Assembly: GCF_039531105.1 (NCBI RefSeq)
Contig: NZ_BAAAPK010000001.1
Span: 2,914,001 to 2,978,000 of the forward strand
Direction: 5' to 3'
Length of the DNA stretch: 64,000 bases
Source: Microbacterium lacus
Lineage (GTDB): Bacteria; Actinomycetota; Actinomycetes; Actinomycetales; Microbacteriaceae
The notes under the pieces were generated by a model, which did no database searches, was not told the origin of the DNA, and was given only the letters and a program-made list of their open reading frames with translations. The translations under genes were made by a program, and so were the position numbers. Positions 24,361 through 60,311 of this stretch are shown here, piece after piece. The number at the start of each line of letters is the position of its first letter. Positions within the stretch are counted from its first letter, which is position 1.

Positions 24361-24387
24361 GGATCCAATCTTCTTATTTCCGGATCC
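24361..24387. promoter_or_regulatory. Island operator a (GGATCC-N15-GGATCC)
   Basis: Two GGATCC boxes start 21 bp apart (24361, 24382) with an AT-rich spacer, 45 nt upstream of the formaldehyde dehydrogenase start. A TAGGCT hexamer (24394-24399) just downstream could be the -10. Confidence 0.75.
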
Positions 24388-24431
24388 ACTTGCTAGGCTT
24401 GATCCGACCCGCTTCGCGAGGAAGGACAAAG

Positions 24432-25652
24432 ATGTCCACGAATCGAGCCGTCGCCTACAGGGGGCCCGGTGTCGTCGAGGTGATCGACACCGCCTATCCC
24501 GAGTTCGAGCTCAAGGACGGACCGGGTGTGCACCCTGCCAACGTCGGCAGACAGGTGCGCCACGGAGCGATCCTCCGCACCGTCGCGACCAACATCTGCG
24601 GATCGGACCAGCACATGGTGCGGGGACGCACGACCGCGCCGCAAGGACTCGTGCTCGGCCACGAGATCACGGGGGAGGTCGTCGAGGTCGGACCCGACGT
24701 GGAATTCATCCGGGTCGGTGACATCGTCTCGGTGCCGTTCAACATCGCCTGCGGACGCTGCCGCAACTGCAAGGAGGGCAAGACCGGGATCTGCCTGAAC
24801 GTCAACCCCGACCGGCCCGGCGGCGCCTACGGCTACGTCGACATGGGCGGCTGGGTGGGCGGCCAGGCGGAATACGTCCTGGTCCCCTACGCCGATCGGA
24901 ACCTGCTCAGGTTTCCAGACGCCGATCAGGCCATGGAGAAGATCCTGGACCTGGCGATGCTGTCCGACATCTTCCCCACCGGCTTCCACGGCGTTGTTAC
25001 GGCCGCGGTCGGCCCCGGTTCGACGGTGTACATCGCGGGCGCCGGGCCGGTCGGCCTGGCCGCGGCGGTCGGCGCCCAACTGCTCGGGGCGGCGGCTGTC
25101 ATCCTGGGCGAACTGAATGAGGCTCGCCTCGCACAGGCCCGCTCCTTCGGCTGCGAGACGATCGACGTCACCCAGGGCGACCCGAAAGACCAGATCGAGC
25201 AGATCCTCGGGGTGCCCGAGGTCGACGCGGGTGTCGATGCCGTCGGCTTCGAGGCGCGCGGACACGGGTCGGAAGCCTCGCACGAGGCACCCGCGACCGT
25301 GCTCAACTCGCTGATGGACATCACCGCCGCCGGCGGCGCGCTCGGCATCCCGGGCCTGTACGTCACCGGCAACCCCGGGGGTGTCGATGAGGCCGCGAAG
25401 GTCGGCTCGCTGTCGCTGCGCCTCGGACTCGGCTGGGCCAAGTCGCTGTCGTTCACGACCGGCCAGTGCCCCGTCATGAAGTACAACCGGCAGCTGATGA
25501 CGGCGATCCTCCACGACGAAGTCCACATCGCGAAAGCGGTGAACGCGACGCCCGTCTCGCTGGAGGAAGCCCCGCAGGGCTATGCCGTCTTCGACCAGGG
25601 CGCCGCGCGCAACTACGTGCTCAACCCGAACGGGTACATCAAGACCGCGTGA
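24432..25652 (+). CDS. Glutathione-independent formaldehyde dehydrogenase (zinc alcohol dehydrogenase family)
   Basis: 406 residues of the FdhA/PFDH type. Catalytic zinc ligands lie in NICGSDQHMVRG and LVLGHEITGEV; the structural-zinc loop is CGRCRNCKEGKTGIC; the Rossmann fold has VYIAGAGPVGLAAAVGAQLLG. The long insertion and the QCPVMKYNRQLMTAILH stretch distinguish this group from simple alcohol dehydrogenases; the bound NAD allows oxidation or dismutation of formaldehyde. In this island it fits removal of formaldehyde set free by N-demethylation, which is inference. GAAGGA precedes the start. It carries island operator a. Confidence 0.87.
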   Translation: MSTNRAVAYRGPGVVEVIDTAYPEFELKDGPGVHPANVGRQVRHGAILRTVATNICGSDQHMVRGRTTAPQGLVLGHEITGEVVEVGPDVEFIRVGDIVSVPFNIACGRCRNCKEGKTGICLNVNPDRPGGAYGYVDMGGWVGGQAEYVLVPYADRNLLRFPDADQAMEKILDLAMLSDIFPTGFHGVVTAAVGPGSTVYIAGAGPVGLAAAVGAQLLGAAAVILGELNEARLAQARSFGCETIDVTQGDPKDQIEQILGVPEVDAGVDAVGFEARGHGSEASHEAPATVLNSLMDITAAGGALGIPGLYVTGNPGGVDEAAKVGSLSLRLGLGWAKSLSFTTGQCPVMKYNRQLMTAILHDEVHIAKAVNATPVSLEEAPQGYAVFDQGAARNYVLNPNGYIKTA

Positions 25653-25710
25653 TGCGGCGATCCCGGCTCCCGGAGTCCCGGCAGCCATCACCCACGAAAG
25701 GAACCACCTC

Positions 25711-26115
25711 ATGTCCGTCACCCTGGAAGACGCCCGCCGCGTCATCGCCGCCGCCGAAAGTCGCGCGAACGAGATCGGCCAGCCCATGAACATCGCCGTC
25801 GTCGACGCGGGCGGCAACCTCGTTTCGCACGTGCGCCAGGACGGCGCCTGGATCGGCAGCATCGAGATCTCGATCAGCAAGGCCTGGACGTCGAAGGCGT
25901 TCGACATCTCGACGAAGGACCTCGGCGACAACGCCCAGCCGACGCAGCAGTTCTTCGGAATCCACTCCACCAACGCCCACGGCCGCGGCGTGGCGATCTT
26001 CGCCGGCGGCGTTCCCCTCACCCGCGGCGGCGAGGTCGTCGGCGCGGTCGGCGTGTCCGGCGGCTCCGGAGAGCAGGACCAGACCGTCGCCGAGGCGGGC
26101 GCGGCCGCCCTCTGA
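25711..26115 (+). CDS. GlcG/HbpS-family protein
   Basis: 134 residues of the DUF336 family: VTLEDARRVIAAAESRANE, the core PMNIAVVDAGGNLVSHVRQDG and the terminal GEVVGAVGVSGGSGEQDQTVAEAG. Family members form octamers, bind haem or small ligands, and are found with glycolate and with diol or amine degradation genes. It probably acts with the dehydrogenase 58 nt upstream. AAAGGA lies 8 nt before the start. A strong bidirectional terminator follows. Confidence 0.87.
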   Translation: MSVTLEDARRVIAAAESRANEIGQPMNIAVVDAGGNLVSHVRQDGAWIGSIEISISKAWTSKAFDISTKDLGDNAQPTQQFFGIHSTNAHGRGVAIFAGGVPLTRGGEVVGAVGVSGGSGEQDQTVAEAGAAAL

Positions 26116-26977: not shown

Positions 26978-27004
26978 GTATCCAATACTAGTAATGTCGG
27001 ATAC
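26978..27004. promoter_or_regulatory. Island operator b (GTATCC-N15-GGATAC)
   Basis: A perfect inverted pair, GTATCC (26978) and GGATAC (26999), 21 bp start to start, in the 71-bp region shared by the divergent transporter and GMC genes. Confidence 0.78.
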
Positions 27005-28462: not shown

Positions 28463-29290
28463 TCAGCGCGCGTCGACGACGTCGCGCCACGGACCCCACT
28501 CGGGATCGTGCCCCGGCCACACCTCGACCCCCGGGCGCGCGTCGAGATCGGCCAGCCGACGGATGGCGGCGTCGGCACGGCCGGCGTCCTCGGGAGTCGC
28601 CGTCGACCCGGTGGCCAGGCGTCGGTCGATGTTCGCACGCAAGTCGGCCGCGTCGCCGGCGAGGACGACCGTGCGTCCCGGCAGCTCGATGACGAACGAC
28701 TGGTGACCGGGCGTGTGACCGGCGGTGTCGATCGCCCTCAGCCCGGGCGCGACCTCCGTGTCGCCGTCGAGCAGCGCGATCGTGAGCCCGGGATGGTCGA
28801 AGTCGCCGCGGAAGAGGAATGCCGCCCGCTCGGAGTCCGTGGCCTGCACGTGCTCCCACTCCCGACGCTGCATGAGCAGCGGCTGCCCGATCTGCAGCAG
28901 GCGCGCGGCACCCGTGTGGTCGAAATGGGCGTGGGAGATCGCGGCGGCGGCGAGATCATGCCACTCCAGACCGGCCTCGGCGACCTGGTCGACGAGTGGA
29001 TCGCCGGGTGGCACGATCGGCACGTAGTTCTCGTAGTCGAAGCTCGCGGCACGGCGTGCGGCGTCGCGCACACGGGACGGGTCGAAGCCGCCGTCCAGGA
29101 GCACCCAGCCCTTCTCGAAGACGACGGCGGCCGCCGTCACCGGCTCCATCAGGTGGCGGAAGGCGCTGCCGCCGCGCACCGAGATGGCTTCGCGGATCGG
29201 CTCGAAGCCCAGCACCATCGGCACGAGTCGCTGCGGTCGACCTGTGAGCGCCAGCGGGGCGGCATCCGCCCATCGACTCACCACCGTCAC
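28463..29290 (-). CDS. MBL-fold hydrolase, AHL-lactonase-like
   Basis: 275 residues of the metallo-beta-lactamase fold: SHAHFDHTG holds the HxHxDH zinc motif, AGHTPGHQSF and the LAGDAADL strand supply further ligands, and VEVWPGHDPEWG the last His. The N-terminal PMVLGFEPIRE stretch resembles N-acyl homoserine lactonases of the AttM/AiiB type. The GTG start at 29290 overlaps the stop of the allophanate hydrolase gene (GTGA), so both are made together. In this setting a lactone or cyclic amide from the pathway is a likelier substrate than a signal molecule. Confidence 0.8.
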   Translation of the reverse strand: MTVVSRWADAAPLALTGRPQRLVPMVLGFEPIREAISVRGGSAFRHLMEPVTAAAVVFEKGWVLLDGGFDPSRVRDAARRAASFDYENYVPIVPPGDPLVDQVAEAGLEWHDLAAAAISHAHFDHTGAARLLQIGQPLLMQRREWEHVQATDSERAAFLFRGDFDHPGLTIALLDGDTEVAPGLRAIDTAGHTPGHQSFVIELPGRTVVLAGDAADLRANIDRRLATGSTATPEDAGRADAAIRRLADLDARPGVEVWPGHDPEWGPWRDVVDAR

Positions 29291-31038
29291 GAGAGCGACC
29301 CGCGGTACGCGCGCCAGCCGCCGTGCGCGGTGATGTCCGACGCCCCCTCCAGGGCGAGCGCCTCGCACAGGAAGCCGGTGAGGGTTCGCCCGTCCTCGAG
29401 TCGGACCGGTCCGACACCCATGGGCTGCGGCAGAGCGGCGACGAAGCGCGCGAATCCCGCCGCCGGGAGCCGCCAGAGCTCTCCAACGATCGACGCACCC
29501 CCCGTGGGCACCCGGGCGAGCCCGGGCTTGGCAGGCGACGTGGCGAGCGCGTACAGCCGATATTCGGGCGCCGTGCGGACGTCTTCCACGAAGGAACCGC
29601 CGGCCTCGACGAGCTGCGGATTGAGGGGCTGACCCCGCAGGTGCGCGCCGACGACGAGCAGCTCGGTCTCGGGCCCGGCGATACGCTCGGCGAGCTGCGC
29701 CAACGTGCGGTCGGCGAACGGTGCTCCGGTGAGCATCACGCCGAACGGCAGTCCCCCCACGAATCCCGCCGGCACGGCGAGGGAGCTCCTGTCGAGCAGG
29801 TTCGCGAAATTGGTGTAGCGGCCCATCCGGCTGTTGACGGCGACCGGGGCGGCGGCGACGTCGGAGAGGGTGGGATGCCCGGTCGTGGTCGGCGTGAGGA
29901 GGGCGACCGCGCCGTTCAGGCGCCGGAGCCCCTCGAGGCCTAGCCGCTCGAGCTTCTCGCGGTCGCGGAAGTAGTCCGCGGCCCGGGCATCGGCACCGGA
30001 GAGGATGATGCCGGCCACGGTGGGATCCAGATCGGTCCCGATGAGCTCGCGATGCGCGGCGATGAACTCGCCGACGGCCGCGGTGCGCTCTGCCACGAAC
30101 GCCCCGCCGTACAGCAGCGCGGCGGCCTCGAGGAGCGGCGCGATGTCGACCTCGACGATCGTGACACCGGATGCGGCGAGCCGGCGCACGACGCCGGCGA
30201 ATGCGTCGGCCCAGCCCTCGGCCAGGTCGCCGAGGTGCTCGGCGGTGGGCACCGCGACGACGGGCGAAGCGTCGAGCGCAGGCGCGGGCCGGTCGACGCG
30301 CGCGAGGGGATCGACCCCGTCCGGACCCGCCATGAGTTCGGCCGCTCGGCGCGCGGTCGCGAGGTCGCGCGCGAACACGGTCACGCAATCGAGCGTTCGA
30401 CATGCGGGCACGACACCCGTGGTCGGGATGAGGCCGATCGTGGGTTTCACGCCGACGATGCCGTTGAGGGCGGCGGGCACACGACCCGAGCCCGCCGTGT
30501 CGGTGCCGAGCGCGAGGTCCACGATCCCCAGCGCGACGGCGACAGCCGAACCGGAGCTCGATCCGCCGGAGATCCGCTCCGGGTCCCACGCGTTGCGCAC
30601 GGCGCCGAATGGGCTCCGCGTGCCCACGAGCCCTGTGGCGAACTGGTCGAGGTTGGTCTTCCCGAGCACGACGGCGCCGGCCTGCCGCAATCGCGCGACG
30701 CTCGGCGCGTCCCCCACCGGCGTCGAGGCGAACGCGCGACTGCCGGCGGTCGTGTCGAACCCCGCGACGTCGATGTTGTCCTTCACCGCCGCGACGAGGC
30801 CGTGCAACGGCAGGCGTTCACCCGCCGCGACGCGCGCATCGACGGCCGCTGCGTCGGCGACCGCATCGGACTCGTCGCGCAGGGCGATCCAGATCTCCGG
30901 GCGATCCACTTCTCGCACGCGCGCGAACGCGGCGTGCACGCGGCTGACGGCGCTCACGCCCCTCTCCTCGTGAGGCTCACGCGCGTCGGAGCGCACGCTC
31001 GCGGGACCGGATGGGGCGGACGAGGACTCGAGAGCCAT
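29287..31038 (-). CDS. Allophanate hydrolase-like amidase (AtzF family)
   Basis: 583 residues. An amidase-signature domain carries the catalytic Lys86 (LVAAVKDNID), the GGSSSGS loop near 158-164 and the nucleophile Ser184 (GTDTAGSGRVPAALNG). The C-terminal part (about 440-583; LFVVGAHLRG-like LLVVGAHLRGQPLNPQL and VPTGGASIVGELWRLP) is the allophanate-hydrolase C-domain, as in AtzF. The family converts allophanate to CO2 and two ammonia. No urea carboxylase is near, so allophanate or an analogue should come from another reaction. The start at 31038 lies beyond the operator. First gene of an operon with the MBL hydrolase. Confidence 0.84.
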   Translation of the reverse strand: MALESSSAPSGPASVRSDAREPHEERGVSAVSRVHAAFARVREVDRPEIWIALRDESDAVADAAAVDARVAAGERLPLHGLVAAVKDNIDVAGFDTTAGSRAFASTPVGDAPSVARLRQAGAVVLGKTNLDQFATGLVGTRSPFGAVRNAWDPERISGGSSSGSAVAVALGIVDLALGTDTAGSGRVPAALNGIVGVKPTIGLIPTTGVVPACRTLDCVTVFARDLATARRAAELMAGPDGVDPLARVDRPAPALDASPVVAVPTAEHLGDLAEGWADAFAGVVRRLAASGVTIVEVDIAPLLEAAALLYGGAFVAERTAAVGEFIAAHRELIGTDLDPTVAGIILSGADARAADYFRDREKLERLGLEGLRRLNGAVALLTPTTTGHPTLSDVAAAPVAVNSRMGRYTNFANLLDRSSLAVPAGFVGGLPFGVMLTGAPFADRTLAQLAERIAGPETELLVVGAHLRGQPLNPQLVEAGGSFVEDVRTAPEYRLYALATSPAKPGLARVPTGGASIVGELWRLPAAGFARFVAALPQPMGVGPVRLEDGRTLTGFLCEALALEGASDITAHGGWRAYRGSLS

Positions 31039-31068: not shown

Positions 31069-31095
31069 GTATCCATTATGCATTGTTTAGGATCC
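31069..31095. promoter_or_regulatory. Island operator c (GTATCC-N15-GGATCC)
   Basis: Boxes at 31069 and 31090, 21 bp apart, between the divergent allophanate hydrolase and cupin genes. The second box overlaps a TAGGAT -10-like hexamer (31088-31093) whose start site would be the cupin ATG itself at 31100. Confidence 0.78.
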
Positions 31096-32735: not shown

Positions 32736-32762
32736 GGATCCATTCTTCCGCTTATAGGATAC
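32736..32762. promoter_or_regulatory. Island operator d (GGATCC-N15-GGATAC)
   Basis: Boxes at 32736 and 32757, 21 bp apart, in the divergent region between the amidohydrolase (-) and the MFS transporter (+). Confidence 0.78.
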
Positions 32763-34035: not shown

Positions 34036-34062
34036 GGATACATTTTCTGTCAGAATGGATCC
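34036..34062. promoter_or_regulatory. Island operator e (GGATAC-N15-GGATCC)
   Basis: Boxes at 34036 and 34057, 21 bp apart, in the short gap between the MFS gene stop and the cyclase start, giving the cyclase and hydrolase genes their own control. Confidence 0.78.
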
Positions 34063-36822: not shown

Positions 36823-36828
36823 CGCCGA

Positions 36829-37602
36829 TCAGCTCGCGAGAGTGAAACCGGGCGAGCCCGGGTCGGCATCGAGCAGTCGGCGCGTGTACCAGTGCTGCGG
36901 GTCGGCATAGATCTGCTCGACCGGACCGGACTCCACGACCTTGCCCTGGTACAGGACCATGACCTCGTCGCTCACCCGCTGTACGACCGCGAGGTTGTGC
37001 GAGATGAAGATCACCGTGATGCCGAGCTTGTCCTTGATCTCCGCCAGGAGATCAAGGATCTGCGCCTGCACGGAGACGTCGAGCGCCGAGGTGATCTCGT
37101 CGGCGATGACGACGTCAGGCTTGATCACCAGGCCGCGTGCGATCGCGATGCGCTGACGCTGTCCACCCGAGAATTCGTGCGGATAGCGGTGCATCATCTC
37201 CGGCTCGAGGCCCACGAGCGTCAGCCACGAGGCGATCTGCTCCTCGTGGCGCGACACGCGGGCGCGCGCCGGATCGATCGCCTCGGCCAGGGTCTGCGCG
37301 ATCGTGCGACGCGGTGACAGCGACGAATACGGATCCTGCGGGATCATCTGCGTGCGACGACGGTGCCGACGCATCGTCGCCCTGTGGCGCGCCGTCAGGT
37401 CGTCGCCGTCGACGACGACACGCCCGGCCGACGGACGCACCTCGCCCACCAGCACCTTGGCGAGAGTCGACTTTCCCGACCCCGATTCGCCGACGATGCC
37501 CACGGTGCGACCCCGCTGCACCATGAGATCCACGCCGTGGAGGACCTGAACGGATCCGAACGACACATCGAGTCCGCGGACGTCGACCATGGGCTCGCTC
37601 AT
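36829..37602 (-). CDS. Dipeptide-type ABC transporter ATP-binding protein (DppF-like)
   Basis: 257 residues of the OppF/DppF kind: Walker A GESGSGKST near residue 40, Q-loop IPQDPYSSLSPR, signature FSGGQRQRIAIARGL and Walker B VVIADEITSALD. The Walker B has Ile in place of Pro after the Glu, a minor variation. The C-terminus (SPGFTLAS) lacks the long oligopeptide-binding extension. It overlaps the fused permease-ATPase by four bases. Confidence 0.88.
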   Translation of the reverse strand: MSEPMVDVRGLDVSFGSVQVLHGVDLMVQRGRTVGIVGESGSGKSTLAKVLVGEVRPSAGRVVVDGDDLTARHRATMRRHRRRTQMIPQDPYSSLSPRRTIAQTLAEAIDPARARVSRHEEQIASWLTLVGLEPEMMHRYPHEFSGGQRQRIAIARGLVIKPDVVIADEITSALDVSVQAQILDLLAEIKDKLGITVIFISHNLAVVQRVSDEVMVLYQGKVVESGPVEQIYADPQHWYTRRLLDADPGSPGFTLAS

Positions 37603-39329: not shown

Positions 39330-39331
39330 GG

Positions 39332-40399: not shown

Positions 40400-40442
40400 G
40401 TTCGAGTCTCCTGTTGGTTCCGGCCCGGGCAGCGTGTCACGG

Positions 40443-47507: not shown

Positions 47508-47538
47508 GACGGCTCCTGGGTCGGTGATCCGCGGCGGG

Positions 47539-48999: not shown

Positions 49000-49026
49000 G
49001 CTCATCATTCCTCGTTCTCGGGTGGT

Positions 49027-50553: not shown

Positions 50554-51883
50554 CGACCGACTCCTGCACGCTCTCGCGCGGGCCGGCCCACGGCGAGGCG
50601 TCGCGGCGCTCCTGCTCTCGCTGCACCCACCGTTCCTGCCAGGCATCGTTCGCGGCGATGGTGTCCATCGCGATCGGCCCGGTCAGCCGCGCGGCCTCCT
50701 CCTCGCTCACCGGATGCGAAGGGGTCTGGCCGCCCGCGGCGAAGGAATCGATCGCGCGCAGCAGCATGCGACGGTTGGCGGTCACCGCGCGGTCGGAGAT
50801 GCCCAGCCGCTCCACCGTACGGTCCTGGATCGCGCCCATGCTCTCCACCGCCCACTGGTCGTGGACGTTGATGTCGAGCCCCATGCCCGTGTACGTGAGC
50901 TCCTTCTGCTCCTGCGGGTCGAAGCCCCAGTTGTTGCTGCGATTGCGCAGCGGACGGTAGTCAGGGAGCGAGACGCCTTCGAGTCGCTGCTGCAGCAGGG
51001 TGTCCTTGTCCGTGACTTCGGCGAAGTCGTACCAGATCATGAACCAGTAGTGGTTCTCGTCGTCGATCGGCACATGCCACTGCGTGAAGACCTTGGTGTT
51101 GCCGAACGGCACGACGAACGCGTTCGGGAAGAGCAGGTTCGTGACCCGCACATGCTTGATGTCTTCGGTGAGCTGTCGCAGCGCGTAGACGCGCAGGCCG
51201 TGCTCGGCGCTCTCGACCTCGATGTCGGGGCGGTAGCTCTCGCCGACGAGCATCGAGAGCTTCTTGCCGGTCCCCTCCACCTCTTCGGCGAACTGCTGGC
51301 CGTACATGTCGCGTGGATCCTCTTGGATGAACCGGTGCAGGAACGACACGTGGCTGGGGTCGATTCCTCCTTCGAGCCCTTGGAGCCAGTTGCACTCCCA
51401 GAGACCCTTGAAGGCGAACGTGTACTCGTCGGGCGCGACGAAGCAGTCGTAGTGCGGAAACGGCGGGGGATCTCCCGCTCCCATGTAGGCGAAGATGAGG
51501 CCGTTCTTTTCGACGCAGGGGTAGTTCGAGATGCGGATCTTCCCGAGGAACTGGCTGTGGTCCGGTTCTGCGGGCTGTTCGACGCATCGTCCCTGGCCGT
51601 CGTAGAGCCAGCCGTGATACAGACACCGGATGCCGTCCTCCTCGAGGCGCCCGTACGACAGGTCCACCCCGCGGTGCGCGCAGAAGCGGCTGATCAGACC
51701 CCAGCCCTCGCGCTTCTTGAACAGCACGAGGTCCTCGCTCATGATCCGCACGGCCTTGACGGGACGTTCGCCCGGCATCTCCGAGACCAGCGCCACCGGC
51801 TGCCAGTACGACCTCAGCAGATTGCCGAGGGGCGTCCCTGGGCCGGAGCGCGTGATCTTCTCGTTGTCTTCCTGTTTCAGCAT
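50546..51883 (-). CDS. Rieske non-haem iron oxygenase, phthalate-dioxygenase type
   Basis: 445 residues. The Rieske cluster ligands are Cys68-His70 (FCAHRG) and Cys87-His90 (CLYHGW). The mononuclear iron motif is Asp175-x2-His178-x4-His183 (GIDPSHVSFLH). The C-terminus is longer and charged. Overall it matches phthalate 4,5-dioxygenase-like single-component oxygenases (type IA), which dihydroxylate aromatic rings or demethylate N- or O-methyl groups. The neighbouring PDR-type reductase supplies electrons. The start at 51883 follows AAGGG 9 nt upstream. Operator h stands just upstream of it. Confidence 0.88.
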   Translation of the reverse strand: MLKQEDNEKITRSGPGTPLGNLLRSYWQPVALVSEMPGERPVKAVRIMSEDLVLFKKREGWGLISRFCAHRGVDLSYGRLEEDGIRCLYHGWLYDGQGRCVEQPAEPDHSQFLGKIRISNYPCVEKNGLIFAYMGAGDPPPFPHYDCFVAPDEYTFAFKGLWECNWLQGLEGGIDPSHVSFLHRFIQEDPRDMYGQQFAEEVEGTGKKLSMLVGESYRPDIEVESAEHGLRVYALRQLTEDIKHVRVTNLLFPNAFVVPFGNTKVFTQWHVPIDDENHYWFMIWYDFAEVTDKDTLLQQRLEGVSLPDYRPLRNRSNNWGFDPQEQKELTYTGMGLDINVHDQWAVESMGAIQDRTVERLGISDRAVTANRRMLLRAIDSFAAGGQTPSHPVSEEEAARLTGPIAMDTIAANDAWQERWVQREQERRDASPWAGPRESVQESVDA

Positions 51884-51899: not shown

Positions 51900-51926
51900 G
51901 TATCCGATCTTGTTGTTATTGTATCC
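51900..51926. promoter_or_regulatory. Island operator h (GTATCC-N15-GTATCC)
   Basis: Boxes at 51900 and 51921, 21 bp apart, inside the 48-nt gap between the reductase stop and the Rieske start; it allows the long Rieske operon to be transcribed on its own. Confidence 0.75.
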
Positions 51927-51931
51927 ACAGC

Positions 51932-52879
51932 TCAGGCATCCAGCACGAGGAGGGGGCACGACGCGCGCGAAACGCACACCATCATGCAGTCCATGCGCTC
52001 TCGCTCCTGCGAGGTCAGCACGAAGTCGCGGTGCTCGACCTCGCCCTCGAGCACGTGGGTCTCGCAGCTACCGCAGATGCCTTCCTCGCAGTCGGTGAGC
52101 ACTTCCACGCCGGCCGACCGCATCACCTCGAGCACCGACTGCTCCGGATCGACCGTCAGCTCGACACCGGTCCGGGCGAGCCGGACGGCGAAGACACCGC
52201 CGGGCTCGTACTCGATGTCGGGTGCGGCGAAGTACTCCAGGCGGAGCCGTCCGTCGTCTTCGGGCAGCAGTTCTCGGAGCGCGCTCAGCATCCGCTCCGG
52301 ACCGCAGGCGTACACCGCCGCGTCCGGCGCGGCCGCCACCGCGGTGGCGAGGTCGGCACGACCGCCCTCATCCCGCGCGACGACGGTGACCACACCGGAG
52401 CCGATCCCCATCACCTCGTCGAGGAAGGCCATGCGACGACGCGTCGACCCCAGGTAGAGGAGGCGCCAGCGCGCGCCGGCGCGGTCCGCGGCGTGCAGCA
52501 TCGGCACGATCGGGGTGATCCCGATGCCTCCAGCGACGAAGAAGTACTCCGCCGCGGGCTCGAGGGCGAAGTGGTTTCGCGGCCCGCGCAGAGTGACCAC
52601 ATCCCCCGGACGCAGCCTTTCGTGCACGGCCCGCGAGCCGCCGCGACTGTGCTCCTCACGCAGCACCGCGATGCGGTACCGGGAGGAGCCGGGCGCTCCG
52701 GTCAGGGAGTACTGCCGCACCGGCGCATCCGGCAGCACCAGATCGATGTGGGCTCCCGGAGCCCAGTCGGCGGCACCGCCGTCGACCGGCTCAAGCTCCA
52801 CGGCGATGACATCGTCCGCCTCGAACGTCATGGCGCGCACGCGAGCGGTGCGCTCCGATACTCCCTCTTCCACCGCCAT
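51932..52879 (-). CDS. Phthalate-dioxygenase-reductase-type (PDR/VanB) oxidoreductase
   Basis: 315 residues in PDR order: FMN domain with RQYSLTG (55-61), NAD domain with VAGGIGITPIVPML, and a C-terminal plant-type 2Fe-2S ferredoxin with CEEGICGSCETHVLEGE and a final Cys in MDCMMVC. It moves electrons from NADH to the Rieske oxygenase encoded next. The ATG at 52879 lies exactly 7 nt from a TAGGAT -10-like hexamer within operator i, so the mRNA should be leaderless. Confidence 0.9.
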   Translation of the reverse strand: MAVEEGVSERTARVRAMTFEADDVIAVELEPVDGGAADWAPGAHIDLVLPDAPVRQYSLTGAPGSSRYRIAVLREEHSRGGSRAVHERLRPGDVVTLRGPRNHFALEPAAEYFFVAGGIGITPIVPMLHAADRAGARWRLLYLGSTRRRMAFLDEVMGIGSGVVTVVARDEGGRADLATAVAAAPDAAVYACGPERMLSALRELLPEDDGRLRLEYFAAPDIEYEPGGVFAVRLARTGVELTVDPEQSVLEVMRSAGVEVLTDCEEGICGSCETHVLEGEVEHRDFVLTSQERERMDCMMVCVSRASCPLLVLDA

Positions 52880-52883
52880 GTTT

Positions 52884-52910
52884 GGATCCTAACACAACCG
52901 TTCTGGATCC
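52884..52910. promoter_or_regulatory. Island operator i (GGATCC-N15-GGATCC), next to the regulator gene
   Basis: Boxes at 52884 and 52905, 21 bp apart, in the divergent region between the reductase (-) and the GntR-family regulator (+). Box 1 overlaps the minus-strand -10-like TAGGAT. Confidence 0.82.
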
Positions 52911-53018: not shown

Positions 53019-53738
53019 ATGGCAGCCGAAGTCCAGCCCGCCTCCGAGATGACGGGCCACGCTCTCGTGGACGACATCGCCGCGAAGATCCGCGCTCGCA
53101 TCATCTCGGGCGAGATCCCCATCGGCGCTCAGCTGCGTCAGGCCGAACTGGCGAACGACTTCGGCGTGAGCCGCACGCCCGTCCGTGAAGCTCTGCGCCA
53201 GCTGCAGACCGGCGGCCTGATCGACGTCGTGCCCAACCGCGGCGCTGTCGTGCGGATCCCCTCCCCGTGGGAGGTGAGAGAGGCCTACACCGTGCGCGCC
53301 GAGCTCGAAGGGCTCGCAGCCGTCCTCTCGGTGGGCAACGCCTCGCACGAAGACATCGAACGGCTGCGTGTCGCCAATCAGGCCATGTACGATCGCTCCC
53401 TCGCCGAACGCGACGAGGCGAACGAGGCGGCACTCGACAGCCGGCGCGAGAACGACATCTTCCACAGCACGATCGCCGAACTCTCGGGCAACTCGCGCCT
53501 GGCCCGCTCGATCGACGAGATCAACGAGACCTTCCCCCGCAACGTGTCGGCCCAGCTGCTGGTCAACGACAGCCGCCATCGCGAGGAGAACTTCGCCGAG
53601 CACGGTCGCATCCTCGACGCGCTCGAGCGCGGCGACGCCGAGGCTGCGCGCGCCGAGATGCGCGAGCACGTGATCAAGGCGGGCGAGCAGCTCGCACGCT
53701 GGTACGAGCGCCGCTCGTCCACGGTCTTCAAGGGCTGA
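53019..53738 (+). CDS. GntR-family (FadR/FCD) transcriptional regulator
   Basis: 239 residues. The N-terminal winged helix-turn-helix is LRQAELANDFGVSRTPVREALRQL (39-62). The C-terminal FCD domain has the metal/ligand-binding pattern DIFHSTIAEL, HREENFAEHGRIL and MREHVIKAGEQL. GAGGGAG precedes the start. It is the only regulator gene in the 37-kb island and lies beside operator i, so it is the best candidate to bind the ten GGATCC-type elements and to control its own gene and the reductase. Its effector is probably an organic acid of the pathway. Confidence 0.87.
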   Translation: MAAEVQPASEMTGHALVDDIAAKIRARIISGEIPIGAQLRQAELANDFGVSRTPVREALRQLQTGGLIDVVPNRGAVVRIPSPWEVREAYTVRAELEGLAAVLSVGNASHEDIERLRVANQAMYDRSLAERDEANEAALDSRRENDIFHSTIAELSGNSRLARSIDEINETFPRNVSAQLLVNDSRHREENFAEHGRILDALERGDAEAARAEMREHVIKAGEQLARWYERRSSTVFKG

Positions 53739-53762: not shown

Positions 53763-54305
53763 TCAGGCGAGCGCCACCGCCGCCATGAGCACCACCGATG
53801 CCCCCATCGCGAGGGGAGCCGTACGGCGCAGCGCGCACGCTCGCGCAGGGATTCCCGTCGGCACCCTCATGGTCAGGGACATGTGGGCGGATGCCGACGC
53901 GAATGCGACACCGGCCGCGAAGGCCAGCCACGCCATGGCCTCACCCGACGCCGCGTGCGAGCCGTGCCCGCCGCCGGACGCGTGGACATCGCCCGACATG
54001 AGCAGGAGCAGGCCCGCCATGAGGACGGCGCCCATCGCGTCCATCGCCGGTCCGGAGCGGTCCTCCGGACAGCCGGAACGCGTCCCGGGAACCGCCGTCG
54101 CACACGCCAGGGCGGCCACGAGGAGCACTCCCGCCCAGCCCACCGTCGGCAGCAGGCCCCAGCCGAGCACCACGTCCGACATCGCCAGGAGCATGCCCAG
54201 GGCGAGGACGGACTCCCGCACGCGGAGTCGACGCCCCGACCCTGCGACGCAGCAGGTGCTCACCGCTGTCGCGATCCACGCACCCGCGTGCAGGACCTCC
54301 GCCAT
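53763..54305 (-). CDS. Small membrane protein next to the copper amine oxidase
   Basis: 180 residues with four to five membrane segments (VLALGMLLAMSDVVLGWGLL, AMDAMGAVLMAGLLLLMSG and others). Between them lies a His/Gly loop (GDVHASGGGHGSHAASG), and Cys pairs occur (STCCVAG, GCPEDRS). No known family is recognised. It overlaps the amine oxidase gene by one base (TGATG), so the two are co-translated. Copper delivery or maturation is a reasonable guess because of the His and Cys residues and the partner enzyme; this is inference. Confidence 0.6.
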   Translation of the reverse strand: MAEVLHAGAWIATAVSTCCVAGSGRRLRVRESVLALGMLLAMSDVVLGWGLLPTVGWAGVLLVAALACATAVPGTRSGCPEDRSGPAMDAMGAVLMAGLLLLMSGDVHASGGGHGSHAASGEAMAWLAFAAGVAFASASAHMSLTMRVPTGIPARACALRRTAPLAMGASVVLMAAVALA

Positions 54306-56314
54306 CAGCGCGAGTGGTCGTCGGATCCGTGGTGGTGGTGCCCGTGTCCGTGATCGCCGTGCGCGTTGTGATCGTGGTCATCATGGTGGCCCGGAGCGTG
54401 ACCGGCGTGCGCGGAGGCATGGCAATCGGCGTCACTCGCCGACGGCGGGACGTCCAAGGACGGGTTGCGGGTGAAGAAGCCGTCCGGCTCGAGCCGCAAG
54501 CCGATCCGGTGAACCGGCATGATGGGCCACTCTTCGGGCTTCGGGTAGTGGTGCACGCCGACGATCGGCCACACCACTAGCTCAGCCCCGTCGAGTGAGC
54601 GATCGGCTTCCTGCCATGCCGTGATGCCCTCGGCCGACAACGGCGCCTGATTGGGGTACTCCCCCGCGATGTAGCGCTCGGACGGGTCGTACGCCGACGC
54701 CCACAGGTGCTTCGCGACGAACGGCGCCTTGCGCTCGACGACGCTTCCCGGCTTGGCGAACAGGCGTGTCGTGTTGGGCAGGGTGAGCCGGTACGACGTG
54801 GCCTCGCCGAAGCGGTTCGTCTTCTCGGTGTTCTCGATCCGCCAGTGCACCGCTCGAGAGGCATCCGCGGTGCGCGCCGCGTCCTTCTCGGACGAGATCG
54901 TCTCCGAGACCATCTTCACCGCGTTGCCGTAGGGGTTGAGCTCGTCGTCGTCCTCGACTTCGGCGTGCACCTCGACCAACCGGTTCTTCGGTCCGTCGAC
55001 GGCCGTGTCCAGACGCACGGCGAAATAGTGCTGGTGCGTCGGCGCCTGCACGTTGGGGCTCACCATCCGCCCGTAGCGCGGCGTCTGCCTGTCGTCGATG
55101 CCCGACACCGACAGGATGCCGGTGAGCTTGACCTCGAGTTCGATGTTGCCGTCCTGGTGGAACGACCAGTAGAAGCCGTAATCGTAGTTGGCCACCGTCG
55201 CGAAGAACGACACCACCAACCGGCGGGAGCGACGGACGTCGGCCTCGCCGATGCGCGTGTTCACGTGCTTCCAGAGGATTGAGTGATCCTCTTCGTGCAG
55301 GCAGACGCCGTTGACGATGGTCTTCGCCTCGCCGTGGCCGTTGAGGAAGTGGGCATCGAAGTAGCGGATCTCGCCCAGGCAGTCGCAGCCGAGCTCGAGC
55401 GATGCGGTCAGCGGCCCCGCGCCGTACTCGCCCCAGTCGAAGAAGTTCTTGCGGTAGGCAGTGGGGTCGGAGTCCAGGTACGGCACGTACATCTCGTTGA
55501 TCGACGCACGCCGGAGCACCGAACGCTCGACATCGCCGTCACGATAGGTCACGTCGTGGAGGATCAACCCTTCGCGGTGGGTGAAGCCGATCCGGAAGGA
55601 CCAGTTCTGCCACCGGACGAGGTGTCCCTCGACCTCGAAGCCCGGCCCCTGGGGCTGGATGATCTCCAGCGGCGCGACCTCGCGATCCGGACCCCAGGTC
55701 CCCGAACGATAGTTGCCCCCCTCGCTCGCGAGCGGGATGACGCCGTGGTCCTCCAGCTCGATGATGTCGAGGGTCTCCAGATCGAGAATCGGGACGAGGC
55801 CCGCCACCGGGCGCGCGTAGCCGTTGTCGTCGACGCTCTCGCGGTGCCAGACGGATCCCCACGACAGACGCCGGTCCTCGTACCCTTCCGGCTCGAATCC
55901 CGTCATCGACTCGGGATCGACCCAGACGAGAGACGTGTCGGTGATGCCGCGCTTGGCCAGCGCCTCTTTCAAGAGGGGGTGATTGCGCGCCGCCTGGGCG
56001 ACCATGCGGGCTTCGTCGGAGGAGACGCCGGGGCGCTTGGCGTCCACCGGCGACCAGGAGCCGACGGATGCCTCGCGGTCGGTCCCGCTCGTCCATGCCG
56101 TGACCTCCCACGCTGCGTGCGCATCGGGGTTCATGACGACGAGGCGCACGGGGCGACCCTGCCCGTCGGCGAGGCTGCGCGCGAGCGACTCCTCCACCGC
56201 GACGCCCCAGAACCGCGGGTTCTCGCCGAGGCGCGCATCGGCGCGGACCAACGCCGCCACTTCCGCGATTTCGTCCGCGGTGAGCGGTTCGGTCCAGTGT
56301 CGGGCGGCGTGCAT
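54305..56314 (-). CDS. Copper-containing primary amine oxidase with His-rich tail
   Basis: 669 residues. The topaquinone precursor Tyr is near 377 in VANYDYGFYW (consensus Asn-Tyr-Asp/Glu); copper ligands are the HxH at about 427-429 (THQHYF) and a distal His in VGVHHYPKPEEWP; the catalytic base Asp is near 293 (FDWGEYG). It oxidises a primary amine to aldehyde, ammonia and H2O2. The last 40 residues contain about 15 His (GHHDDHDHNAHGDHGHGHHH). ATG 56314 has GGAGGAGG 5 nt before it; an upstream ATG at 56380 overlaps the previous gene and lacks a site. No signal peptide is seen. Confidence 0.88.
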   Translation of the reverse strand: MHAARHWTEPLTADEIAEVAALVRADARLGENPRFWGVAVEESLARSLADGQGRPVRLVVMNPDAHAAWEVTAWTSGTDREASVGSWSPVDAKRPGVSSDEARMVAQAARNHPLLKEALAKRGITDTSLVWVDPESMTGFEPEGYEDRRLSWGSVWHRESVDDNGYARPVAGLVPILDLETLDIIELEDHGVIPLASEGGNYRSGTWGPDREVAPLEIIQPQGPGFEVEGHLVRWQNWSFRIGFTHREGLILHDVTYRDGDVERSVLRRASINEMYVPYLDSDPTAYRKNFFDWGEYGAGPLTASLELGCDCLGEIRYFDAHFLNGHGEAKTIVNGVCLHEEDHSILWKHVNTRIGEADVRRSRRLVVSFFATVANYDYGFYWSFHQDGNIELEVKLTGILSVSGIDDRQTPRYGRMVSPNVQAPTHQHYFAVRLDTAVDGPKNRLVEVHAEVEDDDELNPYGNAVKMVSETISSEKDAARTADASRAVHWRIENTEKTNRFGEATSYRLTLPNTTRLFAKPGSVVERKAPFVAKHLWASAYDPSERYIAGEYPNQAPLSAEGITAWQEADRSLDGAELVVWPIVGVHHYPKPEEWPIMPVHRIGLRLEPDGFFTRNPSLDVPPSASDADCHASAHAGHAPGHHDDHDHNAHGDHGHGHHHHGSDDHSR

Positions 56315-56376
56315 GGGGGCCTCCTCCGTGTGCGGGCGGGTCGATACGTGTCGTGTCGGATCGGGGGACGTGGTCG

Positions 56377-57912
56377 TCATGCGATGCTCTGTTCGGTCGC
56401 GGAATCGGGATGCATCACGATGCCGACACCGTCGGCACGGGGATCGCTGCCACTCGTGATCTCGCCGCGCGCGCGGCGCACGAGCTGGACGTGCCCGGCC
56501 TCATCAGCGCGAGCGGGGAATCGGACGACGGGCAGGCCGTTCTCGCGCGCACGATCGAGCACGTCCGGGGCGACCCCCGGCTCGGCGACCAGCGAGAGCT
56601 CGGGTTGCCCCAGATCGCGGTCGCCGACCACCCAGCGAGGACGATCGAGGATCGTCGAGAGTGCCTGCTCGGCATCGACGGCCTCCGGGAGGATCTGCGA
56701 CAGGATCCACGCCTGTGCGCGTCCCCCCTGACAGCCTGCGACGACGGTCACGCCCGGGGCATCGACGATCGCGGGGCACAGGGTGTGCGGCGGGCGGGCG
56801 CCGGGGCGCACCGCCGCCGGCGACGCCGGATCGACGCTGAATGCGCTGCCGCGGTTGTGCAGCATGATCCCCGTGCCGGGATCGAGCAGGCCCGCGCCGA
56901 AGGTCTGATACACGCTCTGCACGATCGTGACGCTCCACCCCTCGTCGTCCAACGCGGTCACCGCGGCGGTGTCACCGAGAGGGCGCGGTTCGGCGAACGC
57001 CGGTGCGGGGGTACGGACGCCGAGGTCGAGCAGAAGGTCGAGGTCGATGTCGCTCGATCGCGGATCTCCCAGCGCGGCGGCCCGCGCATGTACGCCGCGA
57101 ATCGCGGCATCCACCAGGATCGCACCCGAGACGGATCCGGCTGCGGCCCCCGCCGTCGCCGCGGTGACGACGCCGATCAACACCGGTCCGACGGACGGCG
57201 GCGGCGCGACGTGCCAAGTCTGCTCCCCGATCGGGCGCGTCAGGGCGGGCACGACTTCCGCGGCGTAGGCCGAGAAGTCCTCGACCGTGTGGGTCCCCCC
57301 ACCCGCGCGCAGAGTGTCGACCAGGGACCGCGCGATGCCGCCCCGGTAGAAGTCGTCCACATCGTCGGCCAGGCTGCGCAGGGTCACGGCCAGCGCGGGC
57401 TGACGTAGCGTCTCGCCCTGCGTGAGCGGGATCCCGGCGGGCGCGAACACCCCGCGCATTCCAGGGTCTTCCTCCACCGCATCCGCACGCGACGCGATCG
57501 CGCGCGCCAGACCTGCGCTCACCGGGAATCCCCCGTCCGCGACGTTCGCGGCGTCCGTGAACGCGGAAGACAGATCGTGCCGGCCGCCGATCGCGGCGAT
57601 CTCGCGCCATCCGGCGACGATTCCCGGCACCGTGACGGCGTGCGCCCCTTGCCGGGGCACCTCGGTCCAACCCGACACCACATCGCTGATCGCCGCCGGC
57701 GCGGTTCCGGCAGCGATCACCGCGGTGGTTTCGCCGCCCGGAGTGCGGACGAGGGCGATGAGGTCGCCGCCCAGCGCGCACTGGTGGGGGTAGACGACCG
57801 TGAGCATGACGGCAGCGGCGAGCGCCGCGTCGAGCGCGTTCCCGCCCCCCGCGACGGCGCGCTTGCCGGCGGCGACCGCTTCGGGATGCGGTGCGGCGAG
57901 TGCGATGGTCAT
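56377..57912 (-). CDS. Gamma-glutamyltransferase-like Ntn hydrolase
   Basis: 511 residues. It has the GGT large-subunit start (LAAPHPEAVAAGKRAVAGGG, VYPHQCALGGDLIALV), the nucleophile region GDTAAVTALDDEGWSV (Thr at the processing site, aligned with the GGT TTHxSVVD motif) and the late SGSDPRADGVG. The usual SVxxT adjacent residues vary. Without a signal peptide it would act in the cytosol, where it could remove or transfer gamma-glutamyl groups from the amide made by the ligase. The start follows the flavin oxidase stop by one base. Confidence 0.8.
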   Translation of the reverse strand: MTIALAAPHPEAVAAGKRAVAGGGNALDAALAAAVMLTVVYPHQCALGGDLIALVRTPGGETTAVIAAGTAPAAISDVVSGWTEVPRQGAHAVTVPGIVAGWREIAAIGGRHDLSSAFTDAANVADGGFPVSAGLARAIASRADAVEEDPGMRGVFAPAGIPLTQGETLRQPALAVTLRSLADDVDDFYRGGIARSLVDTLRAGGGTHTVEDFSAYAAEVVPALTRPIGEQTWHVAPPPSVGPVLIGVVTAATAGAAAGSVSGAILVDAAIRGVHARAAALGDPRSSDIDLDLLLDLGVRTPAPAFAEPRPLGDTAAVTALDDEGWSVTIVQSVYQTFGAGLLDPGTGIMLHNRGSAFSVDPASPAAVRPGARPPHTLCPAIVDAPGVTVVAGCQGGRAQAWILSQILPEAVDAEQALSTILDRPRWVVGDRDLGQPELSLVAEPGVAPDVLDRARENGLPVVRFPARADEAGHVQLVRRARGEITSGSDPRADGVGIVMHPDSATEQSIA

Positions 57913-57913
57913 G

Positions 57914-59008
57914 TCAGATCCCCCGTCGGGACGTAGAGATGAAATCGAGATCACGGCGTTCTGCTCCCGTGGCGAGATCGGCGAGCGCTTCGCCCACGGC
58001 GGGTCCGAATTTGAACCCGTGGCCGGAGCAGGCCGATGCCACGACGACCTCGGGTGCGCGCCGCAGCGGACCGATCACGAATCGCTTGTCCGCCGTCATC
58101 GTATACAGGCATGCGGCGAGTTCGACCGCGGCGGTGTCGATCCGCGGCACGTAGAGACCGAGCAGCTGCCGCAGCGCCTCCGCCTCGGCCTCGGAGGGTG
58201 GTGCGACGGGCGATTCCGGGTCCCAGATCAGTCCCGCGTCGATGCCGAGCTTCACGCCGTTGCCATCGGCGTCCGGAATCCCGAAGACGAGCCCTTCGTG
58301 TCTGTCGACCGAGAAGGCGCCCAGTGACGGCGGCATCCCGACCGCCTGACCGGCTGCCACGGTCAGGGTCAGGATGCGCCAGACTTCCACGAGCGGCGCG
58401 AGCTCGGGCACGAGCGCGCCCATCCAGCTGCCCCCCGCGATCACGAGCCGGCGCGCGCGGAGCTCGCCCGCATCGGTGCGCAGCACGACGCCGGCGTCGA
58501 CCCGCTCCCACCCCTCAGCGCGCACACCCCACCGCAGCGCGGCGCCGTGCGCGGCGGCCGACTGCTGCAGCGAGCTCACCGCACGGGACGCCTCGAGCAC
58601 TCCGGCATCCGGGTCGTACACGGCGCCGTATCCCGTCGGCACCGCGAATCCCGGCATAAGCTCGGCCATCCGTGCGCGTTCGTCGACGACCACGCAGCCG
58701 GGGCCCTGCAGCTGCGATTCCCCGCGGTGGGCGTACAGCCCGCCGGTGCGGTGCAGCAGCGTCTCCCCGCTCTCGCGCTCGAGCGCGCCCCACCCGTCGA
58801 AGGCGCGCGCGACGAAGTCGTTCCAGATCGGGTTCGGGTACGCGCGACGGATCATGCGGGTGCGGCCGTGAGAAGAGCCACGCGTATGGGCGGGCTCGAA
58901 GCGATCGACGGCGATGACGTCGACCCCGCGACGTGCGAGAGCGGCCGTGGCGGCGCTGCCGTGGATGCCGAGGCCCACGACCACGACGTCGGCATCGCGT
59001 GCGGTCAC
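57914..59008 (-). CDS. Monomeric sarcosine/N-methyltryptophan-oxidase-like flavoenzyme
   Basis: 364 residues of the DAO family. The FAD fold is VVVVGLGIHGSAATAALARRG (residues 8-28) with the conserved RGSSHGRTRMIRRAY segment. The covalent-FAD Cys occurs in LAACLYTMTADKRF, and the catalytic stretch SACSGHGFKFGPAVGE matches SolA/MSOX/MTOX. The reaction would be oxidative N-demethylation of an N-methyl amine, giving formaldehyde, which agrees with the formaldehyde dehydrogenase in the island. GTG at 59008 overlaps the aminotransferase stop (GTGA). Confidence 0.85.
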   Translation of the reverse strand: MTARDADVVVVGLGIHGSAATAALARRGVDVIAVDRFEPAHTRGSSHGRTRMIRRAYPNPIWNDFVARAFDGWGALERESGETLLHRTGGLYAHRGESQLQGPGCVVVDERARMAELMPGFAVPTGYGAVYDPDAGVLEASRAVSSLQQSAAAHGAALRWGVRAEGWERVDAGVVLRTDAGELRARRLVIAGGSWMGALVPELAPLVEVWRILTLTVAAGQAVGMPPSLGAFSVDRHEGLVFGIPDADGNGVKLGIDAGLIWDPESPVAPPSEAEAEALRQLLGLYVPRIDTAAVELAACLYTMTADKRFVIGPLRRAPEVVVASACSGHGFKFGPAVGEALADLATGAERRDLDFISTSRRGI

Positions 59009-60261
59009 GGCCGGGCTTCCTTCCGCGCGATGTCCGCGACGCCCTCCAGCAGTTCGACGATATCGGCGCCGTCGTTGTACACGTGCGGAGAGGCCCGCAC
59101 GACCGAGGCGATCGAACGATCCCCGAGATCCCATTGCCCGTGCGTCGCCGGGACCGAGACCACGCGCACGCCCCGGTCGGCGAGCGCCGTGGACACACGA
59201 GCCGATTCCACGCCGTCGATCAGGAAAGTGACGATAGCAGAGGCGGATCCCTCGGGGTCGGCGATCGTCACGCCCGGAATGTCCCGCAAGGACTCGCGGA
59301 CCAGCTCGCCTGTCGAGGTCAGCCACCTCGCGGTCTGGGCGATGCCCCGACTGTTGGCCTCCTCGAGTGCAACGCCCAGTCCGAGTCGACCAGCGATACC
59401 TGCTTCCCACGTCTCGAATCGACGGGCGGTCGTCGTGACGTCCCACGACGACGCGCCCACCCATTGCGACCCGCGGACGTCCGGAGCGGAGGGCGGCAGC
59501 ATCGCCGCGCAGTCGCGCTGCACGAATGCGAGCGCCGTCCCCCGCGGGGCGCGCAGGAACTTCCGGCCAGTCGTCACCAGCACGTGGCAGCCGATCCGGG
59601 CCACGTCGATGTCGAGGTGCCCGACGGACTGCGTCGCGTCGAGGACGTAGGCGGCACCGTAGCGGCGGGCTAGCCCGCCGATCTCGTGCACCGGCTCTAC
59701 CAAGCCCGACGATGTGGGGATGTGTGCGATCGTGAGTATCGTCGGGCGCCCGTCGGCGAGGAGCGCTTCGAGCGCCTCGAGGTCGACGCGGCGCTGCGCG
59801 TCGGTGGGCGCGAGGACCAGTTGGACGTCCTGCTCCTTCTGGAGCGTCATGAGGTGCAGTGCGTGGCTGACGTATGTGCTGCGCGAGGCGATGATGCGCG
59901 AGCCGGGAGCAGGGCGGAAGGCATCCAGGATCACGCGCAGTCCGGTCGATGCGCTGTCGAAGAGGGCGATCTCTTCGGCGTCGCAACCGAGCACGGCGGC
60001 CGCCGACCCGTAGACCGCTTCTACGCTCTCCTTGACCTGTGCAGCTGCCTCGTAGCCCCCGATGCGCTCCTCAAGGCGGAGATGCGTGACGACCGCCGAT
60101 ACCACCGCGGCCGTGGGCAGAGCGGAGCCCGCCGCGTTGAAGTGATGGGACGCGGCCGCGCCGCGAGTGAGTTCACGCTCCAGCGCGACATCGAGCGTGG
60201 CGCCGACCAGCGGCACGACCGCGTCTCGTCGAGCGGCGTCAGCCGCGGGCAACGATGTCAT
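59005..60261 (-). CDS. Class V aminotransferase-fold PLP enzyme (EgtE/isopenicillin-epimerase-like)
   Basis: 418 residues. The PLP lysine is in VTTGRKFLRAPRG, with the cofactor Asp/His in VLDATQSVGHLDIDVARIG and a Ser/Thr pocket in ALFDSASTGLRVILDAF. The HFNAAGSALP start and the overall length match EgtE, isopenicillin N epimerase and related C-S or C-N lyases more than transaminases. It is the first gene of the minus-strand operon and carries operator j. It may cleave a C-S or C-N bond in an oxidised intermediate. Confidence 0.8.
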   Translation of the reverse strand: MTSLPAADAARRDAVVPLVGATLDVALERELTRGAAASHHFNAAGSALPTAAVVSAVVTHLRLEERIGGYEAAAQVKESVEAVYGSAAAVLGCDAEEIALFDSASTGLRVILDAFRPAPGSRIIASRSTYVSHALHLMTLQKEQDVQLVLAPTDAQRRVDLEALEALLADGRPTILTIAHIPTSSGLVEPVHEIGGLARRYGAAYVLDATQSVGHLDIDVARIGCHVLVTTGRKFLRAPRGTALAFVQRDCAAMLPPSAPDVRGSQWVGASSWDVTTTARRFETWEAGIAGRLGLGVALEEANSRGIAQTARWLTSTGELVRESLRDIPGVTIADPEGSASAIVTFLIDGVESARVSTALADRGVRVVSVPATHGQWDLGDRSIASVVRASPHVYNDGADIVELLEGVADIARKEARP

Positions 60262-60284
60262 GGAACTCCGTGTCCTCTCAAACA

Positions 60285-60311
60285 GGATCCAAAACTATCA
60301 CAAATGGATCC
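60285..60311. promoter_or_regulatory. Island operator j (GGATCC-N15-GGATCC)
   Basis: Boxes at 60285 and 60306, 21 bp apart, shared by the divergent aminotransferase (-) and amidotransferase-like (+) genes. It is the rightmost element of the island. Confidence 0.78.

Follow-up and report, generated by a model that had tools for sequence, protein, structure and literature searches.

The stretch of DNA analysed here (hereafter the window) comprises 64,000 nucleotides of the Microbacterium lacus contig NZ_BAAAPK010000001.1 (positions 2,914,001 to 2,978,000 of the forward strand), and contains an island of 33 genes, g22 to g54 (24432 to 61149, based on gene calls and on NCBIfam and Pfam scans), in which a 27-bp element, a putative operator, precedes the transcription units. 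The element consists of two boxes separated by an AT-rich spacer. An initial annotation of the window had listed ten of these elements, starting at 24361, 26978, 31069, 32736, 34036, 42267, 42450, 51900, 52884 and 60285, and when read directly in the window all ten coordinates were correct. They had been assigned to ten intergenic regions, but there are only nine, since two of the elements, at 42267 and 42450, are both located in the 507-bp gap that separates g38 from g39. Likewise, nine of the ten follow the proposed form GKATMC-N15-GKATMC exactly, whereas the element at 42450 has one mismatch, its left box being GCATCC. The start-to-start distance of the boxes is 21 bp in all ten elements, and each box is, as had been noted, a palindrome, here of 10 bp (consensus TTGGATCCAA, with the core variants GTATCC and GGATAC). 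Scoring was done with a 39-bp weight matrix trained on 51 exact sites (one of 52, with a GC-rich spacer, was left out), among them nine of the ten window elements, without the one at 42450. With this matrix the ten elements score 24.2 to 44.8 bits.

In order along the window, element 1 (24361..24387; exact, 34.5 bits) lies upstream of g22-g23 (24432..26115, plus strand), which encode an fdhA-like dehydrogenase of the glutathione-independent formaldehyde dehydrogenase family and an HbpS-like protein. Element 2 (26978..27004; exact, 36.8 bits) is located between the divergent genes g24, presumably a TauE-like permease (a name based on weak matches), and g25, a GMC oxidoreductase. Element 3 (31069..31095; exact, 39.9 bits) separates the allophanate hydrolase operon g27-g26, of which g27 (29287..30957, minus strand) scores above the NCBIfam cut-off of TIGR02713, from the divergent cupin gene g28, and element 4 (32736..32762; exact, 32.9 bits) does so for g30-g29 (amidohydrolase) and g31, a major facilitator superfamily (MFS) transporter. 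Element 5 (34036..34062; exact, 29.0 bits) precedes g32-g33, for an arylformamidase-like cyclase and an alpha/beta hydrolase. Element 6 (42267..42293; exact, 36.5 bits) is found 252 bp from the start codon of the g38-g34 operon (35545..42014, minus strand), encoding an oligopeptide/nickel-type ATP-binding cassette (ABC) importer and an amidohydrolase, and element 7 (42450..42476; one mismatch, 24.2 bits) is upstream of the RidA/YjgF-like gene g39. Element 8 (51900..51926; exact, 31.5 bits) precedes g46-g40 (43086..51883, minus strand), with genes for a Rieske oxygenase, a glutamine-synthetase (GS)-like ligase, an aldehyde dehydrogenase, an isochorismatase-like protein, an amidohydrolase, a phosphotriesterase (PTE)-like protein and an amidase. 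Element 9 (52884..52910; exact, 44.8 bits, with TAGGAT-N6-ATG) lies between the divergent g47 (51932..52879, minus strand), a ferredoxin-type reductase with a predicted leaderless transcript, and g48 (53019..53738, plus strand), a GntR/FCD regulator and the candidate binder of the element. Element 10 (60285..60311; exact, 41.5 bits) lies between the divergent amine-oxidase operon g53-g49 (53763..60216, minus strand), which encodes an EgtE-like pyridoxal phosphate (PLP) enzyme, a DAO-type oxidase, a gamma-glutamyltransferase-like protein, a copper amine oxidase and a protein of 180 amino acids (g49) for which NCBIfam and Pfam gave no family match, and g54 (60352..61149, plus strand), an EgtC-like class-II glutamine amidotransferase.

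When the 33 genes were grouped manually into 15 units by strand and gap, from gene calls and not from transcripts, an element was found upstream of every unit, which goes beyond the annotation's claim that nearly every transcription unit carries one. In each case it is located between the unit and the neighbouring gene upstream, and its distance from the start codon ranges from 4 to 252 bp. Aside from g22 and g27, also g50 (primary-amine oxidase) and g52 (N-methyltryptophan-oxidase-type) score above NCBIfam cut-offs, and the Rieske oxygenase scores above that of Pfam, but most other names, including those of several further amidohydrolases and amidases, are best matches below the cut-off. Judged by these assignments, the functions of the island look catabolic, and we read it as serving the use of an amine or nitrogen-rich compound. 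Comparison of the island proteins with NCBIfam, Pfam and PDB sequences yielded enzyme classes and no single pathway, and of the routes weighed as candidates (Puu-like gamma-glutamylation, triazine/biuret-type and ergothioneine-type), none was settled on. The same gene set contains both the allophanate hydrolase (29287-30957) and an isochorismatase that is weakly biuret-hydrolase-like (46851-47507), which hints at a nitrogen-rich substrate.

The argument that sites with one spacing do not recur by chance was borne out by counts. For pairs of boxes 7 to 60 bp apart in the window, a spacing of 21 occurred nine times and any other at most twice. Based on the base composition of the window, the exact pattern is expected 1.8 times per genome and 0.018 times per island, and the island holds nine. 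When one mismatch was allowed, the window gave 13 matches, three of them in addition to the ten sites, where 1.05 were expected, and none of 100 dinucleotide-preserving shuffles of the window reached this number. The ten spacers contain on average 75% A+T, compared to 34% for the intergenic DNA of the window, so they are indeed AT-rich, but their mean mutual identity is only 39%; thus it is the boxes and the flanking A/T that are kept. Within the window, no match of at least 5 bits was found outside 24361-60311, with a matrix that was partly built from these sites, consistent with the statement that the sugar, mal and core promoters are devoid of the element. In the complete 3.54-Mb genome, the exact pattern was found at 11 places, nine of which are in the island, and the reversed pattern, used as a control, at none. 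The other two, with scores of -5.6 and 4.9 bits, fall within called genes. With a stricter pattern, which requires A/T at positions 9 and 19 of the 27-mer, and one mismatch allowed, there were 17 places, comprising the ten island sites and seven others of -5.8 to 7.6 bits. Thus, the element is not equally common upstream of unrelated genes but is confined to the island in its own genome, and the distribution is that expected of a regulon with one regulator: all 15 inferred units have an element and elsewhere, in a genome scanned at up to one mismatch, nothing exceeds 7.6 bits. Three of the seven places outside the island (G000 C1:310082-310450) are identical 27-mers spaced 171 bp apart, probably a tandem repeat unrelated to the regulon.

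To describe the box itself, 52 dereplicated elements were averaged, resulting in ATTGGATCCAAT. Within the inner 10-mer, G3/C8 are conserved for 97% and A5/T6 for 98%, and position 4/7 is G/C in 79% and T/A in 15%. A freer count used a single GGATCC anchor in called intergenic DNA and accepted as partner any hexamer with at least 4 of 6 matches, no position being fixed. At 21 bp there were 48 such partners on one side and 58 on the other, compared to 2 to 6 for distances of 20 or 22 bp, and of 59 partner mismatches 34 fell at positions 4/7 of the 10-mer, 13 at 3/8 and 12 at 5/6. A third box gave no clear mean signal at 21 bp on either side of the pair in the 52 elements, and the signals at +5, +10 and +16 fall within the A/T-rich spacer. 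A weaker third box is probably present in a subset of loci, as judged from the freer count, in which partners at 42 bp are raised. GGATTA-like boxes of this kind are seen about 21 bp past the pair in three loci (L038 ~593-640, L043 ~4601-4650 and L048 ~5166-5215).

The regulator gene g48 encodes an N-terminal GntR winged helix-turn-helix (HTH) domain (PF00392, 67.7 bits versus a cut-off of 27) and a C-terminal FCD domain (PF07729, 74.2 bits versus a cut-off of 24.3), and matches the PDB 6z74 series, i.e. Atu1419, with an E-value of 2.2e-14. Its HTH match begins at residue 17, therefore g48 lacks a long N-terminal extension of the NanR type. All 25 aligned regulators, and that of genome G176, share the motif SRTP[VI]REALRQL and the metal motif ND.FH. 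In metal-binding FCD regulators such as Atu1419 the ligands are Asn137, His141, His192 and His214; ND.FH is present in 25 of 25 aligned sequences, and conservation extends to the columns of the remaining two His residues, so that g48 is a putative metal binder. In the Atu1419-DNA structure (PMC7797058), G3 and A5 of ATGTATACAT are read by Arg45 and Thr46, respectively, and there is a contact to the phosphate at T4. Counterparts of these residues occur within SRTP[VI]REALRQL of the aligned regulators. The least variable bases of our boxes are thus those that Atu1419 reads, which supports g48 as the binder without proving it, and the GntR/FCD protein at 53019-53738 is most likely the one that would bind the elements. 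No regulator other than g48 was recognised in g22-g54 using NCBIfam on all 33 genes and Pfam on nine of them.

The initial annotation proposed a scan of related genomes, and here other genera were found to have the element upstream of homologous genes, accompanied by the same regulator gene. A scan with g48 retrieved 15 loci from Microbacterium, Herbiconiux, Jiangella, Kineosporia, Streptomyces and one actinomycete metagenome-assembled genome, with best-segment identities of 64-91%. All 15 contain exact elements, and among spacings of 7 to 60 bp they hold 35 box pairs at 21 and at most three at any other. For genome-wide counts the loose pattern was rejected as a proxy for the regulon. It gave 18, 9 and 28 scattered matches in G164, G004 and G650, which have no g48 match at E 1e-60, and the stricter pattern was used instead. 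With regulator-positive defined as a g48 match at E 1e-60, there were 12 positives among 198 genomes of the genus and 11 among 199 of the family; our own genome was counted in both draws and a few other genomes are in both. In the genus all 12 positives had at least two strict elements (8, 6, 6, 4, 6, 6, 8, 6, 6, 7, 4 and 2; mean 5.75), compared to 4 of 186 negatives (mean 0.20), and 30 of the 186 had at least one. In the family at least one strict element was present in 10 of 11 positives and 23 of 188 negatives. Across the wider phylum the regulator is seldom encountered, with homologues at E 1e-50 in 2 of 395 other genomes (44-49% identity), and plasmid records gave none at E 1e-40.

The placement of the element was determined in 28 sources (the window, L012-L026 and L038-L049), in which species were not dereplicated and several regulator-proximal sites of L038-L048 had also been in the matrix training set. 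Among 85 sites of at least 20 bits (one overlapping pair), 51 lie in divergent and 33 in co-directional gaps, none in convergent gaps, and one inside a called gene, in L041, where the call of the regulator gene over-extends upstream. By comparison, 90.2% of the bases in these sources are genic, and 2.9, 5.0 and 1.9% are intergenic of the divergent, co-directional and convergent kind, respectively. Two layouts can be distinguished in the gene maps. Type A contains the Rieske and GS-like genes, and type B the ABC importer, g30, g29 and g40. Most maps of either type have the amine oxidase, DAO, PLP enzyme and regulator genes. No Rieske gene is present in the stretches of type B clusters that were read, and the element and regulator are kept. 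In G045, homologous genes occupy three places on contig C3, which are separated by approximately 176 kb and 94 kb, and an element is present at all three. This dispersal and the type B layout argue that the element follows the genes and the regulator, and not merely a neighbourhood. As the same element precedes every unit and travels with the regulator gene, the island genes are very probably turned on together.

Promoters were predicted with a crude scan for -10 and -35 hexamers, which gave no candidate for g27. For 10 of the 15 units the best -10 starts inside the element, and g48 has a candidate promoter of its own downstream. At element 3 a predicted promoter, TTGAGT-N17-TAGGAT, overlaps both boxes, with six bases from the -10 to the ATG. 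A similar arrangement is found on the g47 side of element 9, where TAGGAT lies inside the box, six bases from an ATG, in the window (52877-52900) and in L012, L013 and L015-L023. This codon (GTG in L014) is the called g47 start in the window and in 10 of the 12 loci L012-L023, whereas in L012 and L023 another start was called. Accordingly placed, TAGGAT-N6-ATG fits a leaderless g47 transcript that is blocked by the bound regulator, and a leaderless transcript with its -10 inside the operator is what we predict for g47. The overlap of elements with most predicted promoters suggests repression that is relieved by an inducer, and repression with induction by a compound of the pathway would be the likeliest mode of control.

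We therefore consider it highly likely that the GntR/FCD regulator encoded at 53019-53738 uses the 27-bp element as its operator, and that it represses one catabolic island until induction. From the computed element, its spacing, placement and confinement, the co-occurrence and the conserved contacts, we infer a scheme that starts with binding and repression. The two 10-bp palindromes, centred 21 bp apart, would allow two dimers to bind next to each other on the same face of the helix, possibly in a cooperative manner, and these dimers may mask the -10 or -35 of a promoter on one side of the element or of promoters on both. They would then be released by a small-molecule inducer that occupies the metal site of the FCD domain and might be a carboxylate or an intermediate of the pathway. 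In this way one switch would control transporters, the Rieske system, an enzyme resembling gamma-glutamyl ligases, the oxidation of amines and aldehydes, and a large number of C-N hydrolases.

Several observations weigh against this conclusion. In 79% of the boxes the conserved G is followed by a second G, and in 15% by T, which departs from the canonical FadR-subfamily palindrome NyGT-Nx-ACNy, and the element would thus be a variant operator. Other FadR/HutC members with unusual motifs are named in PMC4494728, so membership of the g48 protein does not depend on the operator canon. The 97-98% conservation is in part a product of the seeding pattern, in which G1, A3, T4 and C6 of the box are fixed, and the freer partner count backs the contact pattern less strongly. 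In that count, partners at 42 bp with 4 or 5 of 6 matches numbered 20 and 8, compared to 4 to 9 at 11 or 31 bp, so that the rule of two boxes may not be strict, and in L014 the boxes of the g47/g48 element (around 9832) are 20 instead of 21 bp apart. The linkage of element and regulator in the 15 loci is partly built in, because these were retrieved by the regulator, and kinship between genomes makes the Fisher values of 3e-16 (genus) and 4e-8 (family) overstate independence. The distant homologues in G416 (49%) and G474 (44%) have at best an 18.9-bit site or nothing of at least 8 bits within flanks of about 1.5 kb. The regulator-positive G072 has no exact match, but there are three matrix sites of 25-30 bits around its gene. 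Conversely, G673, without a g48 match at E 1e-60, contains one 25.3-bit element (L058, C43:24116-24142) beside another FCD GntR gene, the product of which is 32% identical to g48, and the operator may thus also be recognised by a related regulator. Finally, the loose matches in G164, G004 and G650 occur without the regulator, mostly with GC-rich spacers, and are most likely background.

How else could these data be explained? The same operator and regulator might serve in activation or have a dual role, the paired boxes placing the regulator beside RNA polymerase and not over it. This would suit g22, g39 and g54, for which the crude scan put the best -10 6-8 bp past the element and the -35 in the spacer between the boxes, and FadR-subfamily members can both activate and repress. 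Yet, by the same crude scoring, 10 of 15 best -10s start inside the element and the conserved -10 of g47 lies inside a box, which makes activation improbable in our view. We give still less credence to another, unlinked regulator that binds the element while the GntR gene is merely a target. The element of G673, located beside the other FCD GntR gene in a genome with no orthologue of g48, is in line with this possibility, as is g49, which has no family match. However, NCBIfam recognised no second regulator in the island, the presence of the regulator and the number of elements go together across the 198 and 199 genomes, and the box pattern fits the Atu1419 contacts. That the element is not an operator but an alternative-sigma promoter or a dispersed repeat appears very unlikely: it does coincide with predicted promoters in most units, but it is symmetric on both strands and frequently (51 of 85 sites) lies between divergent genes, which does not agree with a directional -35/-10 promoter, sigma-70-like hexamers are present at several units, and spacers of 39% mean identity are unlike those of a recent repeat. 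Chance or base composition, for which one could cite the scattered, mostly GC-rich matches of G004, G164 and G650, is refuted by the nine sites against 0.018 expected in the island and the 13 matches against 1.05, and has a practically negligible probability.

Operation as a repressor thus remains our preferred explanation. A more specific version, to which we give somewhat less than even confidence, is that g48 represents an FCD subfamily with paired full palindromes locked two helical turns apart, at which two dimers bind cooperatively and provide a sharp switch for a large amine/N-heterocycle catabolic gene set, the substrate of which would enter an undescribed gamma-glutamylated amine pathway that includes a Rieske step. 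This version includes the weaker third box in some loci, and a gene set that sometimes forms one island and is sometimes scattered over the chromosome.

Gamma-glutamylation pathways for amines are known from the Puu, GlnA4 and aniline type of systems. In these pathways a GS-like ligase, a DAO oxidase, an aldehyde dehydrogenase and gamma-glutamyl-cleaving enzymes occur together, as they do in the island. The island adds many C-N hydrolases, a combination that did not come up in searches of the open-access literature. Also the regulator, the motif and the cluster were not found described in the open-access PMC papers that the searches retrieved. The operator variant and the regulon are new, whereas the regulator family is well known, so this is not a new kind of system.

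HypR of Streptomyces coelicolor is likewise an actinobacterial FCD GntR repressor of a catabolic gene set, but its motif, CTNTGC(A/C)ATGTCAC, differs from the island element (PMC6608401). Operators of the FadR subfamily with added half-sites resemble the element in having A/T-rich palindromes and extra boxes near the main site (PMC4494728). There, the weaker half-site lies 7-12 nt from the site centre, whereas here a second full palindrome follows, nearly always at 21 bp; the FadR-subfamily consensus TKGT/ACMA also speaks against our assignment, in that the island element mostly has GG/CC instead of GT/AC. NanR of E. coli is a GntR repressor that binds as dimers side by side, cooperatively, on closely spaced boxes, but these are direct repeats, (GGTATA)3, and the cooperativity depends on a 32-residue N-terminal extension (PMC8012715), whereas the island boxes are palindromic and g48 is without the extension. 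Atu1419 of Agrobacterium fabrum, a GntR/FCD protein of the VanR group, represses a catabolic region (PMC7797058). Its 10-bp palindrome, ATGTATACAT, has G3/C8 and A5/T6 placed as in the island boxes, with T/A at position 4/7 where the latter mostly have G/C. One of its palindromes covers a -10 box, and it shares the recognition helix SRTPVREAL and the Asn-His-His-His metal ligands. For Atu1419, two promoter regions contain three palindromes in all, which stand at a distance of 190 bp (109 bp in the case of a degenerate one) and are looped by a tetramer, whereas the island has ten elements for 15 inferred units with palindromes 21 bp apart. Together, these results equip a large catabolic gene set, uncharacterised and found in several actinobacterial genera, with a precisely defined putative operator, a candidate regulator and a closed list of genes. 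With this operator, missing pathway members can be traced in any genome that bears the regulator, the regulator offers a ready inducer screen for the substrate, and the 21-bp pair lends itself well to testing how FCD dimers might cooperate in the absence of looping.

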